Origin: Cellulomonas humilata
Lineage (GTDB): Bacteria; Actinomycetota; Actinomycetes; Actinomycetales; Cellulomonadaceae
Direction: 5' to 3'
Assembly (NCBI RefSeq): GCF_013359775.1
Contig: NZ_JABMCI010000069.1
Span: 1-64,000, forward strand
Length of the DNA stretch: 64,000 nucleotides
A program made the position numbers and the translations under genes. The notes beneath the pieces are model-generated. The model made no database searches and was not told the origin of the DNA. It worked only from the letters and a program-made list of their open reading frames with translations. This document shows, one piece after another, positions 45,145 through 58,713 of this stretch (positions are counted from its first letter, which is position 1; each line of letters starts with the position of its first letter).

Positions 45145-45196
45145 CGCAGCGTCCGCACTCGATCGGGTTCCCACCCCCACGAGTGCGGACGCTGCG
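45145..45196 (+). repeat. GTCCGCACTC palindrome, copy A1
   Basis: Arms 45145-45161 and 45180-45196 form a perfect 17-bp inverted repeat. The core is CGTCCGCACTC, 20 bases (gatcgggttcccacccccac), GAGTGCGGACG. It starts 11 bases after the osmC stop. Confidence 0.9.
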
Positions 45197-45212
45197 TCGT
45201 CCTTGGTCGGTG

Positions 45213-45254
45213 CGTCCGCACTCCGGCGGGTTCCGGGCCACCGGAGTGCGGACG
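45213..45254 (+). repeat. GTCCGCACTC palindrome, copy A2
   Basis: Arms 45213-45226 and 45241-45254 pair perfectly over 14 bp. The distance between CTC and GAG is again 20 bases and the loop carries GGGTT. It lies 17 bases after copy A1 in the same orientation and 65 bases before the dehydrogenase start. Confidence 0.9.
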
Positions 45255-45318
45255 TCGTCGGGTTCCACCCCTCGGTGACGTGTGCGGGGGAGACGGTCGC
45301 CGGTGCGAGACTGCCCCC

Positions 45319-48300
45319 GTGGTGGCCGTGACGCAGACCGTGGCAGGTGACGTGGGGAGCGCCGACGTGGTGCAGGCCCTGCGGGCCGCGCTGCGCGGGG
45401 AGGTCGACGACAGCACCCGCCGCCGCGCCGAGTACTCCACCGACGCGTCGAACTACCGCGTGGTCCCCCAGGTCGTCGCGTTCCCGCAGGACACCGACGA
45501 CGTGCTCGCTGCCCTGTCGGTGGTGCGGGACCTCGGCGTCCCGCTGACCGCCCGCGGCGGAGGCACCTCGGTGGCCGGGAACGCGGTCGGCACCGGGGTG
45601 GTGCTCGACTTCTCGCGGCACGTCAACCGGATCCTCGAGGTCGACCCGGAGGCGCAGACCGCCCGCGTCGAGCCCGGCGTCATCATGGCCGCCCTCCAGA
45701 AGGCCGCGGCCCCGCACGGTCTGCGCTTCGGGCCGGACCCGTCCACGCAGGCACGCGCGACGCTCGGCGGGATGATCGGCAACAACGCCTGCGGCCCCCG
45801 CGCGGTGGCGTACGGGCGGACCGCGGACAACGTGCTCGCGCTCGACGTGGTGGACGGCACCGGGCGACGGTTCGAGGCACGGTCGGGAGCGGGCGCGCTC
45901 GACGTCGTACCGGGTCTCGACGCCCTCGTCCGCGGCAACCTGGACGTCCTCCGGACCGAGCTGGGCCGATTCGGCCGGCAGGTCTCCGGCTACTCGCTCG
46001 AGCACCTGCTGCCCGAGAAGGGCACCGACCTGGCCAAGGCGCTGGTCGGCACCGAGGGGACGGTCGCCACGCTGCTCGGCGCGACCGTGCGCCTGGTGCC
46101 GGTCGCGGCCGCCCCGGTGCTCGTCGTGCTCGGCTACCCGGACATGCCCACGGCCGCGGACGCCGTCCCCGCGCTGCTCGCGCACGCGCCGCTGGCCATC
46201 GAGGGCATGGACTCCCGGCTGGTCGACGTGGTGCGCCGGGTCCGTGGTGCGTCGGCCGTCCCCCCGCTGCCGGCCGGTGGGGGATGGCTCATGGTCGAGG
46301 TGGGCGGTTCGGACCTCGCCGAAGCTCTGCAGCGGGCGCACGCGCTGGCGAGCGACGCGGGCACCGACGCCGTCGGCCTCTTCCCGCCCGGACCCGAGGC
46401 CGCCGCGATGTGGCGCATCCGTGAGGACGGTGCCGGCCTGGGTGGTCGTACGCCCTCCGGCGCGCAGGCGTGGCCGGGGTTCGAGGACTCGGCCGTGCCG
46501 CCGGAACGGCTCGGTGCGTACCTGCGCGAGCTCGAGGCGCTCATGGCGGCGCACGCCGTGGACGGTCTGGCGTACGGGCACTTCGGCGACGGCTGCGTGC
46601 ACCTGCGGCTCGACATCCCGCTCGAGCGGTCGGGCAACCCGCTGCGCGCGTTCATGACGGACGCGGCGGCGCTCGTCGCGTCGCACGGCGGCTCGCTGTC
46701 CGGGGAGCACGGCGACGGCCGCGCCCGCTCGGAGCTGCTGCCGGTGATGTACTCCGCGCAGGCGATCGACCTGTTCGGCGCCTTCAAGGACCTGCTCGAC
46801 CCGCGCGACCTGCTCAACCCTGGGGTGCTGGTCCGGCCGAGCCCGCTCGACGCCGACCTGCGCCGCCCCTGGGCGCGCCCGCTGCTGGCCGACGGTCACG
46901 GCTTCTCGTTCGCGCACGACGCGGGGGACCTGACCACCGCGCTGCACCGCTGCGTCGGCGTCGGCAAGTGCCGCGCGGACAGCACCGCGACCGGCGGCTT
47001 CATGTGCCCCTCCTACCTGGCGACGCGGGACGAGAAGGACTCGACCCGCGGCCGCGCCCGCGTCCTGCAGGAGATGGCCAACGGCACGCTGGTCGGCGGT
47101 GGCTGGTCGTCGCCCGAGGTGCACGAGTCGCTCGACCTCTGCCTGTCCTGCAAGGCGTGCTCGTCGGACTGTCCTGCGGGCGTCGACATGGCGCAGTACA
47201 AGTCCGAGGTGCTGAACCGTACGTACCGCGGCCGGCTGCGCCCGGCGTCGCACTACGCCCTCGGCTGGCTGCCCCGCTGGGCGCGGCTGATCACCGGTGT
47301 CCCGGGGCTGTCCGCGCTGACCAACCGGGTCCTCGGCATCCGCCCGGTCGCGCGAGCGGTGCTGGCCGGCGGCGGCATGGACACCCGGCGGCAGATGGTC
47401 ACGTTCGCCCGCCGGCCGTTCCGCGTGTGGGTGCGCGGCGAGGGCCGCGACGCGGTGACCCTCACCCGCAACGTCCGAGGACGGTTGCGCCAGGACGACC
47501 AGAGGCTCGGACGTCCTGCGAAGCGCGAGTTCCTCGGGCGTCCGGGCAAGGGGACCCAGCACGGCGGCGCCACGGGGGGACGCAGGCCGCAGGTCGTGCT
47601 CTGGACGGACTCGTTCTCCGACACGCTCGCGCCGTCCGTCGCGCAGGCCGCGGTGGCGGTGCTCGTCGACGCGGGGTACGAGGTGCTGGTCCCGCAGGAC
47701 AACGCGTGCTGCGGCCTCACCTGGATCAGCACCGGGCAGCTGGACGGGGCGAAGAAGCAGCTGACCCACCTGCTCGGCGTGCTCGGTCCGTTCGCCGTCA
47801 ACGGCATCCCGATCGTCGGCCTCGAGCCGTCATGCACCGCGGTCCTGCGCTCCGACCTGCGCGACCTGCTCCCCGACGACCCGCGCGCGGTCGCGGTGGC
47901 CCGCGAGTCCCGCACGCTGGCGGAGCTGCTCACCGCGCCCGCCCCCATCGGTCCCGGTGACCGCTGGCGGGTGCCGGACCTGTCGGACGTCACCGCCGTC
48001 GTGCAGCCGCACTGCCACCACCACTCGGTGATGACGTGGACGCCCGACCGCCGCCTGCTCACCGACGCGGGCGCGCAGTTCTCGGCGCTCGCCGGGTGCT
48101 GCGGGCTGGCCGGCAACTTCGGCATGGAGAAGGGGCACTACGACGTGTCGGTCGCGGTGGCGGAGAACGCGCTGCTCCCGGCCCTGCGCGACGCCGCTCC
48201 CGGGGACGTGTTCCTGGCCGACGGGTTCTCGTGCCGCACGCAGGCGGACCACCTGGCGGGGGTGCAGGGCGTGCACCTGGCCGAGCTGCTGGCCGCGCAC

Positions 48301-48336
48301 CTGCCGGCGCGGCACGGCGCCGACACGTCCGCCTAG
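45319..48336 (+). CDS. Fused FAD-binding and Fe-S dehydrogenase (GlcD/D-LDH-like with GlpC-like half)
   Basis: In this 1,005-residue protein residues ~40-230 are FAD_binding_4 (PLTARGGGTSVAGNAVGTG) and ~235-500 the FAD-oxidase C domain (SGEHGDGRARSELL). Then come two 4Fe-4S motifs, CVGVGKCRADSTATGGFMC and CLSCKACSSDCPAG, and CCG domains with DNACCGLTW and AGCCGLAGNFG. Such proteins oxidise 2-hydroxy acids (D-lactate, glycolate or D-2-hydroxyglutarate) and pass electrons to the quinone pool. The substrate is not assigned. The GTG at 45319 is the first of three nearby GTGs. Confidence 0.92.
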   Translation: MVAVTQTVAGDVGSADVVQALRAALRGEVDDSTRRRAEYSTDASNYRVVPQVVAFPQDTDDVLAALSVVRDLGVPLTARGGGTSVAGNAVGTGVVLDFSRHVNRILEVDPEAQTARVEPGVIMAALQKAAAPHGLRFGPDPSTQARATLGGMIGNNACGPRAVAYGRTADNVLALDVVDGTGRRFEARSGAGALDVVPGLDALVRGNLDVLRTELGRFGRQVSGYSLEHLLPEKGTDLAKALVGTEGTVATLLGATVRLVPVAAAPVLVVLGYPDMPTAADAVPALLAHAPLAIEGMDSRLVDVVRRVRGASAVPPLPAGGGWLMVEVGGSDLAEALQRAHALASDAGTDAVGLFPPGPEAAAMWRIREDGAGLGGRTPSGAQAWPGFEDSAVPPERLGAYLRELEALMAAHAVDGLAYGHFGDGCVHLRLDIPLERSGNPLRAFMTDAAALVASHGGSLSGEHGDGRARSELLPVMYSAQAIDLFGAFKDLLDPRDLLNPGVLVRPSPLDADLRRPWARPLLADGHGFSFAHDAGDLTTALHRCVGVGKCRADSTATGGFMCPSYLATRDEKDSTRGRARVLQEMANGTLVGGGWSSPEVHESLDLCLSCKACSSDCPAGVDMAQYKSEVLNRTYRGRLRPASHYALGWLPRWARLITGVPGLSALTNRVLGIRPVARAVLAGGGMDTRRQMVTFARRPFRVWVRGEGRDAVTLTRNVRGRLRQDDQRLGRPAKREFLGRPGKGTQHGGATGGRRPQVVLWTDSFSDTLAPSVAQAAVAVLVDAGYEVLVPQDNACCGLTWISTGQLDGAKKQLTHLLGVLGPFAVNGIPIVGLEPSCTAVLRSDLRDLLPDDPRAVAVARESRTLAELLTAPAPIGPGDRWRVPDLSDVTAVVQPHCHHHSVMTWTPDRRLLTDAGAQFSALAGCCGLAGNFGMEKGHYDVSVAVAENALLPALRDAAPGDVFLADGFSCRTQADHLAGVQGVHLAELLAAHLPARHGADTSA

Positions 48337-57410: not shown

Positions 57411-57458
57411 CAACGTCCGCACTCGATCGGGCTGGAGCCCTCCCGAGTGCGGACGTTG
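57411..57458 (+). repeat. GTCCGCACTC palindrome, copy B1
   Basis: Arms 57411-57425 and 57444-57458 are a perfect 15-bp inverted repeat. The core is CGTCCGCACTC, 20 bases with GGGCT, GAGTGCGGACG. It starts 17 bases after the NlpC/P60 stop. Confidence 0.9.
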
Positions 57459-57476
57459 TTGCGTTCCCCCGGGAGA

Positions 57477-57518
57477 CGTCCGCACTCGTGGGTGCTCAGG
57501 GCCGTCGGAGTGCGGACG
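57477..57518 (+). repeat. GTCCGCACTC palindrome, copy B2
   Basis: Arms 57477-57487 and 57508-57518 (11 bp, perfect) have the same 20-base spacing. The repeat ends 3 bases before the stop codon of the minus-strand DUF559 gene. Orientation is the same as in the other five copies. Confidence 0.88.
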
Positions 57519-57521
57519 CTG

Positions 57522-58508
57522 TCATGCCGGGTGGCCGGGCGGTGAGGGAGTCCAGCCCGCGTGGCGCAGTGCGCGCTCCACGGCGTCCAGGTGGCGACGA
57601 GGATCGAGGCGGAGTCCGAGGCTGGGGATCCGCAGCACGGTGTCGCCCCCGAGTGCGATCTCGTTGTGCCGGAGGCTGTCGTCGATCCACCGGTCCGGCT
57701 GCAGGTGTCCGACTCCGTCCACCTCGACGACCACCCGCCACCGTCGCCACCGCACGTCGAGGTAGGAGCTGCCTCGCGCTGACGAGACCACGACCTGGCG
57801 ATCAGGTTCGGGCAGGCCGCGTTCCCGGCAGTGCGCGGCGAAGTCGAGCTCGTTGAGCGAGTGGGCTCCGCCGGCGACGTCGACCAGCACGCTCCGGAGC
57901 AGTGAGCGTCTCCGATCGCGCTTCACCCTCTCGAGCACCGAGACGAGAGGGTCGATCGCCGTCAGTCGTTGCTGCACGGTCGCGACGAGCAGGAGGGTCG
58001 CCTCCCGGTCCGACCGCGCCCACAGAGCCGCCTGGACGGCCGCGACCTCAGGTCGTGCTCGCGGCACTCCCAAAATCGTCACGACGTCCTCGTCGCGCCA
58101 GCGTCGTGTCTCGTGCACGCGGACGCCTGGTGGCGGCGGGACCGGGTGCGACGACTTCGGGGCGGCGACGTGCACGAGGCCGTCGTCGGCGATTCCCGAG
58201 AGCCCGGCCGCGACCAACGCCGTCAGCCCGGCGATGGCGGCTCGAGGGCGGGTTCCGACTGCAGCCCGTGGGGCGCACTCCAGAACGGCCTGCCACCAGG
58301 CGACCGTGTCGGTCGGCCACGGCGGCGCGACCACGACCGTGTTCCTGCCGACGGATCGCCACCTGCCGGCGGCGAGCTCCGCTTCGAGCTGCGCTGCCGT
58401 GACCCCGAGGCCGCGGACCTGCGGCCGACTGAGCAGGCCGGCCTGCTCCGCGGCGTGAGCGGCGACTCGCTCACGGCGTTCCACACGAGGCTGACGATCC
58501 GTTGCCAT
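57522..58508 (-). CDS. DUF559 (Vsr-like) endonuclease-domain protein with AbiEi-like N-terminus
   Basis: The 328-residue protein has an N-terminal AbiEi-like helix-turn-helix (LLSRPQVRGLGVTAAQLEAE), a middle domain of ~150 residues, and a C-terminal DUF559 domain (~215-325). The nuclease-type residues are E220 (SLNELDFAAHC), D251 (SYLDVRW) and E262/D264 (VVVEVDGVGH). DUF559 proteins have the very-short-patch-repair/restriction-like fold; their function in actinobacteria is mostly unknown. The gene is bracketed by two pairs of the GTCCGCACTC palindrome, the nearest copy 3 bases from its stop. Confidence 0.85.
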   Translation of the reverse strand: MATDRQPRVERRERVAAHAAEQAGLLSRPQVRGLGVTAAQLEAELAAGRWRSVGRNTVVVAPPWPTDTVAWWQAVLECAPRAAVGTRPRAAIAGLTALVAAGLSGIADDGLVHVAAPKSSHPVPPPPGVRVHETRRWRDEDVVTILGVPRARPEVAAVQAALWARSDREATLLLVATVQQRLTAIDPLVSVLERVKRDRRRSLLRSVLVDVAGGAHSLNELDFAAHCRERGLPEPDRQVVVSSARGSSYLDVRWRRWRVVVEVDGVGHLQPDRWIDDSLRHNEIALGGDTVLRIPSLGLRLDPRRHLDAVERALRHAGWTPSPPGHPA

Positions 58509-58603
58509 GCCCCCACGTTCCTGGCGATCGCCCGACCGGCCGTGCAGCGCGACGACCACTGTGGGCGGTGGCCCCTCCGCAGCGTCCGGTGGGCGGCTCG
58601 GCA

Positions 58604-58647
58604 ACGTCCGCACTCGCGAGGGTTGGAACGCACACGAGTGCGGACGT
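58604..58647 (+). repeat. GTCCGCACTC palindrome, copy C1
   Basis: Arms 58604-58616 and 58635-58647 are a perfect 13-bp inverted repeat. The 20-base core spacer contains GGGTTGGAAC. It lies 95 bases upstream of the DUF559 start. Confidence 0.9.
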
Positions 58648-58663
58648 CACGCGGGGGAGAACA

Positions 58664-58713
58664 GCAACGTCCGCACTCCCGCGGGTTGGAACCTGCAGGA
58701 GTGCGGACGTTGC
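58664..58713 (+). repeat. GTCCGCACTC palindrome, copy C2
   Basis: Arms 58664-58679 and 58698-58713 are a perfect 16-bp inverted repeat. The 20-base spacer contains GGTTGGAACC, itself an inverted repeat. It lies 24 bases beyond the ppa stop. Confidence 0.9.

Follow-up and report, generated by a model that had tools for sequence, protein, structure and literature searches.

A DUF559-type nuclease gene bracketed by paired palindromes in Cellulomonas humilata: a REP-like repeat family with a predicted cognate nuclease

Palindromes and the bracketed gene

The window, which is the whole stretch of 64,000 nucleotides of Cellulomonas humilata DNA analyzed here, contains a gene for a protein of 328 residues (P0001) lying between two pairs of palindromes (Table 1). 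A preliminary description of this DNA had reported six copies of one palindrome, and all six were found. The palindrome is CGTCCGCACTC-N20-GAGTGCGGACG (42 bp in total); the arms are identical at 11 of 11 positions and the loop has 20 bases in every copy, the 20 middle bases being variable. The copies form three pairs (A, B and C) with a start-to-start distance of 63 bp within each pair. As had been described, the B and C pairs enclose exactly one gene, and B2 ends 3 bases from its stop codon. The C pair also simply marks where the pyrophosphatase gene (ppa) ends, 29 bp past its stop. All 12 exact half-sites in the window are inside the six palindromes, and the idea that the half-sites are uptake-type single motifs was therefore rejected. 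A 42-bp palindrome of a second family, hereafter the CGTCCGAG family, lies inside a coding region and is possibly an intragenic repeat.

Table 1. Positions of the palindromes, the nuclease gene and its two regions in the window
Feature	Position	Strand	Remark
Palindrome A1	45150..45191	no strand	16 bp 3′ of OsmC-like gene
Palindrome A2	45213..45254	no strand	start 63 bp after A1
42-bp palindrome, second (CGTCCGAG) family	47472..47513	no strand	inside coding region 45280-48336 (FAD-linked oxidase)
Palindrome B1	57414..57455	no strand	pattern search
Palindrome B2	57477..57518	no strand	3 bp from nuclease stop codon; start 63 bp after B1
Predicted cognate nuclease gene, P0001 (328 aa)	57522..58508	-	AbiEi-like N-terminal part and DUF559-type PD-(D/E)XK nuclease part
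DUF559-type nuclease region, residues 215-315	57564..57866	-	profile comparison, conserved residues, low-confidence model
AbiEi-like region, residues 11-183, winged-helix start	57960..58478	-	PADLOC AbiEi profile, E = 2.7e-9; low-confidence model secondary structure
Palindrome C1	58605..58646	no strand	upstream of nuclease gene
Palindrome C2	58668..58709	no strand	29 bp 3′ of ppa stop; start 63 bp after C1

The protein had been described as a DUF559 Vsr-like nuclease with an AbiEi-like N-terminus. The N-terminal assignment was confirmed: the PADLOC AbiEi profile is matched at E = 2.7e-9, and all 19 aligned homologs match it. The nuclease assignment stood on profile comparison and conserved residues, although not on the Pfam score. 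P0001 reaches 15.4 bits against DUF559 (PF04480), below the curated cut-off of 20.6, so that a PF04480 search alone misses the window's own protein; only 6 of the 19 homologs match the DUF559 profile at E 0.1. When the P0001 family was compared with the Rhizobiales DUF559 family by hhalign, the probability was 93.2 (E 3e-7, 74 columns). The residues D, ExDG, H, D and R are invariant in both alignments alike, and E220, D222, D251, E262, D264, G265, H268, D277 and R280 are invariant in the 19 homologs of P0001. The AlphaFold model is weak (mean pLDDT 57.8) and is no evidence by itself; its elements come in an order compatible with a winged helix and, after it, an alpha-beta nuclease. With this poor model, Foldseek returned nothing at E 0.001 or better; the second-ranked hit was an AbiEi protein, which was not significant (E 0.71). 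The search for relatives with solved structures returned none.

The direct neighbors of the gene are ppa (inorganic pyrophosphatase) and an NlpC/P60 gene. Neither an AbiEii toxin gene, as in Type IV AbiE toxin-antitoxin systems, nor a methyltransferase gene, as in restriction-modification or Dcm/Vsr systems, is adjacent. In all nine close orthologs ppa adjoins the gene, and the orthologs at the same locus are open to the terminal stop in 4 of 4 checked. A phage or plasmid origin was rejected, since no viral contig carried the exact palindrome and no plasmid record matched the protein at E 0.01.

Repeats and nuclease genes in Actinomycetes

We searched the genome of C. humilata for the palindrome. 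There are 25 exact copies and 6 with one mismatch (31 in total); a 32nd match, with three mismatches, looks unrelated. Chance palindromes were rejected as an explanation, because the reversed control pattern has no copy in the genome. The 31 copies form 17 loci. According to a simple gene caller, 15 of these start no more than 60 bp 3′ of a stop codon, and 6 are flanked by convergent stops. Across the 31 copies, the arm hardly varies and positions 16-18 usually read GGG; variation is found at positions 12-15, which pair little, and the two central bases are almost never complementary. The CGTCCGAG family is present with 9-23 copies in this genome and five relatives. A cognate enzyme of this second family was looked for in 7 stretches of 8 kb holding 8 of its 9 copies in C. 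humilata, and none was found there. Besides the bracketed gene, the genome gave a second match to homolog alignment A1 in the class-wide search.

Of the 221 genomes of the family, 12 contain the palindrome; within the genus, 11 of 81 do. In the named collection, 104 of 105 palindrome stretches among the matches listed were titled Cellulomonas. One exact palindrome (L123) was seen near a run of N on a Rhizobium anhuiense contig, in a genome without a DUF559 match.

Close orthologs of P0001 (61-90% identity), counted with the window's own gene, are present in 10 of the 221 family genomes. The Cellulomonas-type repeat was found in 9 of these 10 genomes versus 3 of the 211 others (Fisher p = 7e-13, relatedness ignored). 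The tenth ortholog genome (G084) has a sister palindrome type instead. The preliminary description had proposed a scan of relatives that lack the gene, and signs of a lost gene were seen in two of the three genomes that have the repeat alone. G095 retains a nuclease-gene fragment at the ppa locus (tblastn E 7e-8), and at the ppa locus of G061 there are two palindromes of the type of G045 but no gene. These patterns are consistent with gene deletion. The third genome, G059, has a single copy elsewhere than the ppa locus, where ppa and NlpC are neighbors with no palindrome between them.

Among 77 genomes with a ppa match, 30 ppa loci were compared. The gene is present at 8 of them. At 18 (L328, L329, L333-L342 and L344-L349), ppa and NlpC are neighbors and there is no such 42-bp palindrome between them; the remaining loci are those of G095, G061 and G059, together with L343, whose NlpC match starts roughly 1 kb away. 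By eye, the empty ppa site of relatives contains GC-rich, terminator-like hairpins. Since the homolog searches scored part of the first-look candidates (9 in the family search, 6 in the class search), some genomes counted as lacking a homolog may be false negatives.

In the class-wide search, a homolog was detected in 162 of 394 Actinomycetes genomes. In other genera, homologs of about 36-47% identity are flanked by different 42-bp palindromes, which have the outer tag TGTCAG and the same geometry. A genome can hold as many as 200 dispersed copies of the pattern TGTCAG-N30-CTGACA; the control gave a total of 1. At least five TGTCAG copies were found in all 21 genomes with a distant homolog versus 18 of 200 without one (p = 5e-19, Fisher, relatedness ignored). 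G002, with a match of 29% identity (E 8.5e-11) and no TGTCAG copy, was counted among the 200; when it is included as a positive, the count becomes 21 of 22. Some repeat-rich genomes have no detected homolog, among them G190 (97 TGTCAG copies), G193 (109), G187 (44), G186 (38) and G016 (31). In seven stretches around repeats from six repeat-bearing genomes (G016 twice, G020, G021, G109, G112 and G116), no homolog lay near the repeats.

Next to the homologs, the palindromes are concentrated. A 42-bp YGTC palindrome lies within 450 bp on at least one side at 64 of 79 homolog loci (these represent 78 genes, L233 and L274 being the same one) and on both sides at 54; there is none on either side at 15 loci, including 7 of 20 paralog loci. 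At 29 class-wide loci scored by the pairing rule, a palindrome is present at 21 and on both sides at 18. The flanks of these loci hold 44 palindromes in 26.5 kb, whereas random stretches from ten of the same genomes hold 4 in 200 kb, an enrichment of about 80-fold at the Actinomycetes DUF559 loci. Under a stricter rule, 18 loci have a palindrome and 12 have it on both sides (32 palindromes versus 3 in the control). When lengths of 36-48 were allowed under this rule, 32 of the 36 flank matches and 3 of the 22 control matches were 42 bp long. Four different gene neighborhoods occur among 29 loci of one family.

Half-sites, paralogs and a second phylum

Each 42-bp palindrome consists of two inverted half-sites, made up of the YGTC tag and a stretch peculiar to the family. 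The type of half-site was compared with the relationships of the proteins. A tree of 61 proteins accounts for the half-site classes with 10 changes; the mean after shuffling is 29.3, and none of 200 shuffles was as low. One branch with 100/100 support separates 28 CGTC rows from 31 TGTC rows, the latter joined by 2 long-branch CGTC rows. Second-copy (paralog) loci have a 42-bp palindrome at 13 of 20. Paralogs within one genome have different half-sites in G124, G150, G179, G232, G506 and G584. L269 (G124) groups with L173 (G120), both with TGTCAGCGC, and L276 (G506) groups with L285 (G396), both with CGTCATGGC. These groupings are cases in which the half-site goes with the protein and not with the genome.

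Orthologs at the ppa locus have changed half-site. The ppa-locus orthologs of G035 and G084 have a half-site of the CGTCCGAG type, and these genomes hold 33 and 20 CGTCCGAG copies, respectively, with one window-type palindrome in G035 and none in G084. The ortholog at the ppa locus of G045 has an CGTCCGCACATTCG-type half-site. At site A (45150-45254), CGTCCGAG palindromes are in register in two related genomes, G064 (a pair) and G035 (one), and the outer flanks are kept. Since the place is the same and the outer flanks are preserved, one family has replaced another between the tags.

Several further observations concern these palindromes. In G063 and G062 (L315 4626-5395 and L316 5294-6075), the single palindrome at site A has next to it some 0.6 kb of additional DNA that is probably coding. 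G079 carries 27 CGTCCGAG palindromes, several with nearly symmetric loops, and has no P0001 homolog at E≤1e-10. Palindromes of different families also abut, with the two bases CG common to their tags (GGACGTCCG; L377 1914-1995 and 3010-3091, L382 1157-1238), as if one had been joined exactly at the tag of another. Ordinary genes are bracketed too, namely those of a Ppx/GppA phosphatase (L377 of G045 and L379 of G035, two species) and an aldehyde dehydrogenase. Bracketing alone therefore proves little, and we rejected it as special in itself.

We also analyzed DUF559 genes in Rhizobiales, where they are present in 121 of 249 genomes. Within 450 bp, 29 of 30 loci (one of the 30 is cut by a contig end) have a C(C/T)TCTCCC-type hairpin or one of two close variants of it, and 18 have one on both sides. 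The flanks contain 71 hairpins in 26.6 kb; the control, 184 kb of random stretches taken from ten of these genomes, contains 3, which gives an enrichment of about 160-fold. The hairpin pattern was written after the loci had been viewed, and the control used the same pattern. At least three copies of CTCTCCC-N5-GGGAGAG were found in 63 of the 121 genomes with DUF559 versus 4 of the 128 without it (p = 4e-20, Fisher, relatedness ignored), and at least one copy in 79 versus 17. This exact pattern has no copy in the other 42 DUF559-bearing genomes. The Rhizobiales DUF559 proteins are short, and their repeat is a short, tight hairpin of another shape than the 42-bp palindrome. Thus, the theme shared by the two phyla is a nuclease with a matching palindrome, not one sequence.

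Interpretation and comparison with known systems

That the gene and the palindrome belong together, as had been hypothesized, is borne out by their co-occurrence, by the enrichment of palindromes at the gene, by the signs of gene loss in two of the three genomes that have the repeat alone, and by the cognate repeats at distant homologs and paralogs. The gene and the type of repeat tend to share the same fate, whether they are inherited, lost or changed. Judged from sequence comparison, the link between them is well supported.

The form in which the palindrome would be recognized was addressed by covariation. Within genomes, the inner positions of the two halves show no excess pairing over a half-swap in 9 of 9 sets (9-25 copies each, among the matches listed; the comparison concerns the inner positions, the arms being fixed by the search pattern). 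Pooled covariation was rejected as proof of hairpins, because pooling mixes species with different half-sites and the effect is gone within genomes. The two halves behave as independent copies of a genome-specific half-site. Each unit is 21 bp, i.e., two helical turns; there are two units per palindrome, usually with another 20-21 bp between neighbors, and 77 of 88 pairs of neighboring palindromes are spaced 61-63 bp. AbiEi binds inverted repeats. We infer that this spacing pattern reflects a dimer bound to duplex DNA, which would be expected of an AbiEi-type domain. Because of the 21-bp units and the lack of covariation between the halves, binding to duplex DNA is favored over the RAYT-like hairpin mechanism, and this part of the earlier hypothesis is not upheld.

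The explanation that we prefer, with moderate confidence, is that the repeats form a REP-like family with a DUF559 nuclease of its own, for which duplex binding, cutting and repair-driven spread are predicted. The AbiEi-like part would bind the duplex palindrome as a dimer, with one 21-bp half-site per subunit, and neighboring palindromes would lie on the same face of the helix. The DUF559 part would then nick or cut the DNA at the YGTC tags or next to them. Repair with other copies as templates may spread and renew the arrays, may swap one family for another in place, and may keep the gene between the arrays. The cutting and repair steps are predicted because the active site is intact, the distribution is patchy and replacement occurs at fixed sites. 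Binding upstream of its own start may autoregulate the nuclease gene.

It is rather doubtful that the role of the protein is regulatory or structural, namely that P0001 is an AbiEi-like repressor whose genome-wide sites are operators, terminators or chromosome marks, with no role of the nuclease part in spreading. The AbiEi profile match of all 19 aligned homologs, the palindromes upstream of the gene's own start, the position of 15 of 17 loci 3′ of genes, and the terminator-like, GC-rich hairpins apparent on visual inspection where the ppa site of relatives is empty would all fit such a role. However, the nuclease residues are invariant in the 19 homologs, the copy number varies from 0 to 200 between related genomes, and the patchy presence, loss and in-place replacement of families resemble repeat turnover.

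A RAYT-like mechanism, in which the enzyme would recognize the palindrome at the replication fork, as a single-stranded hairpin, and would move it by cleavage and strand transfer, is unlikely. The layout is that of REP and RAYT, with the gene bracketed by repeats and copies 3′ of genes; the Rhizobiales repeats are short, tight hairpins, and the mostly unpaired block inside the stem recalls the bulge of the E. coli REP in the portion of the report consulted (PMC8266576). On the other hand, none of the nine within-genome sets has excess inner pairing, the enzyme is PD-(D/E)XK-like and not HUH, and the 21-bp periodicity fits duplex DNA.

Two further explanations are very improbable. The first is that another enzyme spreads the repeats, or that they are ordinary terminators, and that the DUF559 gene is merely among them; some repeat-rich genomes without a detected homolog and the occasional bracketing of housekeeping genes would agree with this, whereas the approximately 80-fold and 160-fold enrichments over random stretches at DUF559 genes in two phyla, the paralog-specific repeats and the four neighborhoods among 29 loci of one family do not. 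The second, a Vsr-type enzyme that serves a cytosine methyltransferase in mismatch repair, as proposed for Caulobacter VsrA, draws on the DNA-damage response that this DUF559 protein causes when the methyltransferase ScmA is absent, according to the part of the report consulted (PMC12907096), but it is hardly tenable here because ppa and NlpC/P60, and no methyltransferase, are the direct neighbors and the matching palindromes would be left unexplained.

Under the preferred explanation of a cognate nuclease acting on duplex palindromes, DUF559 nucleases may, at least in Actinomycetota and Alphaproteobacteria, constitute a second class of REP enzymes that has been overlooked so far. They would play the role of RAYT for YGTC-tagged or other non-GTAG palindromes by a predicted sequence-specific cutting of duplex DNA and copying by repair. 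We put this extension forward only tentatively. If it is true, the process would be a "homing" of the repeat rather than of the gene, with a specificity that can be altered at a single locus and then carried over to the copies throughout a genome. For many families of palindromic repeats in bacteria, no enzyme is known; an enzyme of an unexpected class would be assigned to such a family, a role and a substrate for DUF559 genes would follow, and the long-standing question of who makes and maintains these repeats becomes directly testable. The loci also offer natural enzyme-site pairs that differ in specificity, and tie a common but little-studied nuclease family to palindromes in two phyla.

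In our literature search, which covered a minority of subscription papers and no preprints, no link between DUF559 nucleases and repeats was found among the matches listed. Judged by title and the opening of the abstract, none of the papers found to mention DUF559 deals with repeats. In the consulted part of a 2025 REP survey (PMC12306157), the words RAYT and endonuclease are not used. Among known proteins, P0001 shares its set of nuclease motifs with DUF559/Vsr-like nucleases (PF04480, Caulobacter VsrA). The consulted part of the VsrA report (PMC12907096) contains no link to repeats and proposes a mismatch-repair role; since VsrA is reported to be behind a DNA-damage response in cells without a methyltransferase, at least one DUF559 member acts on DNA in vivo. 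P0001 resembles the AbiEi antitoxin-type DNA-binding proteins in the N-terminal region, which matches AbiEi profiles, and differs from them in the fused nuclease-type domain and in having no neighboring AbiEii toxin gene.

Among known repeats, the CGTC-tagged REPs (Di Nocera et al. 2013, PMC3733652) have the same outer motif (CGTC/TGTC) and also occur as dimers. In the part consulted of that paper, a survey of GTAG and CGTC REPs, they are described as being without a dedicated transposase, and Actinobacteria are not mentioned. By its description, with which our comparison was made, the stem is 8-9 and the loop 4-5, and the tag is unpaired at one end; in the palindromes analyzed here, the tag is paired at both ends, the arms are 11 bp including the tag, and the loop is 20.

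The closest comparison is with the REP/RAYT systems (TnpA-REP, "REPtrons"). Those, with RAYT features taken from PMC8266576, have a GTAG tag and a Y1/HUH tyrosine transposase, whereas the outer tag here is YGTC (CGTC or TGTC) and the bracketed gene encodes a DUF559/PD-(D/E)XK protein with an AbiEi-like domain. The 42-bp two-fold site, whose halves lack covariation at the inner positions, is a further difference. In common with REPtrons, the repeats are short intergenic palindromes, arranged in pairs of fixed spacing and mostly 3′ of genes, and they are dispersed in many copies (31 at 17 loci here, up to 200 in relatives). As in REPtrons, the gene of the enzyme is bracketed by its own repeat, and recognition would be family-specific.
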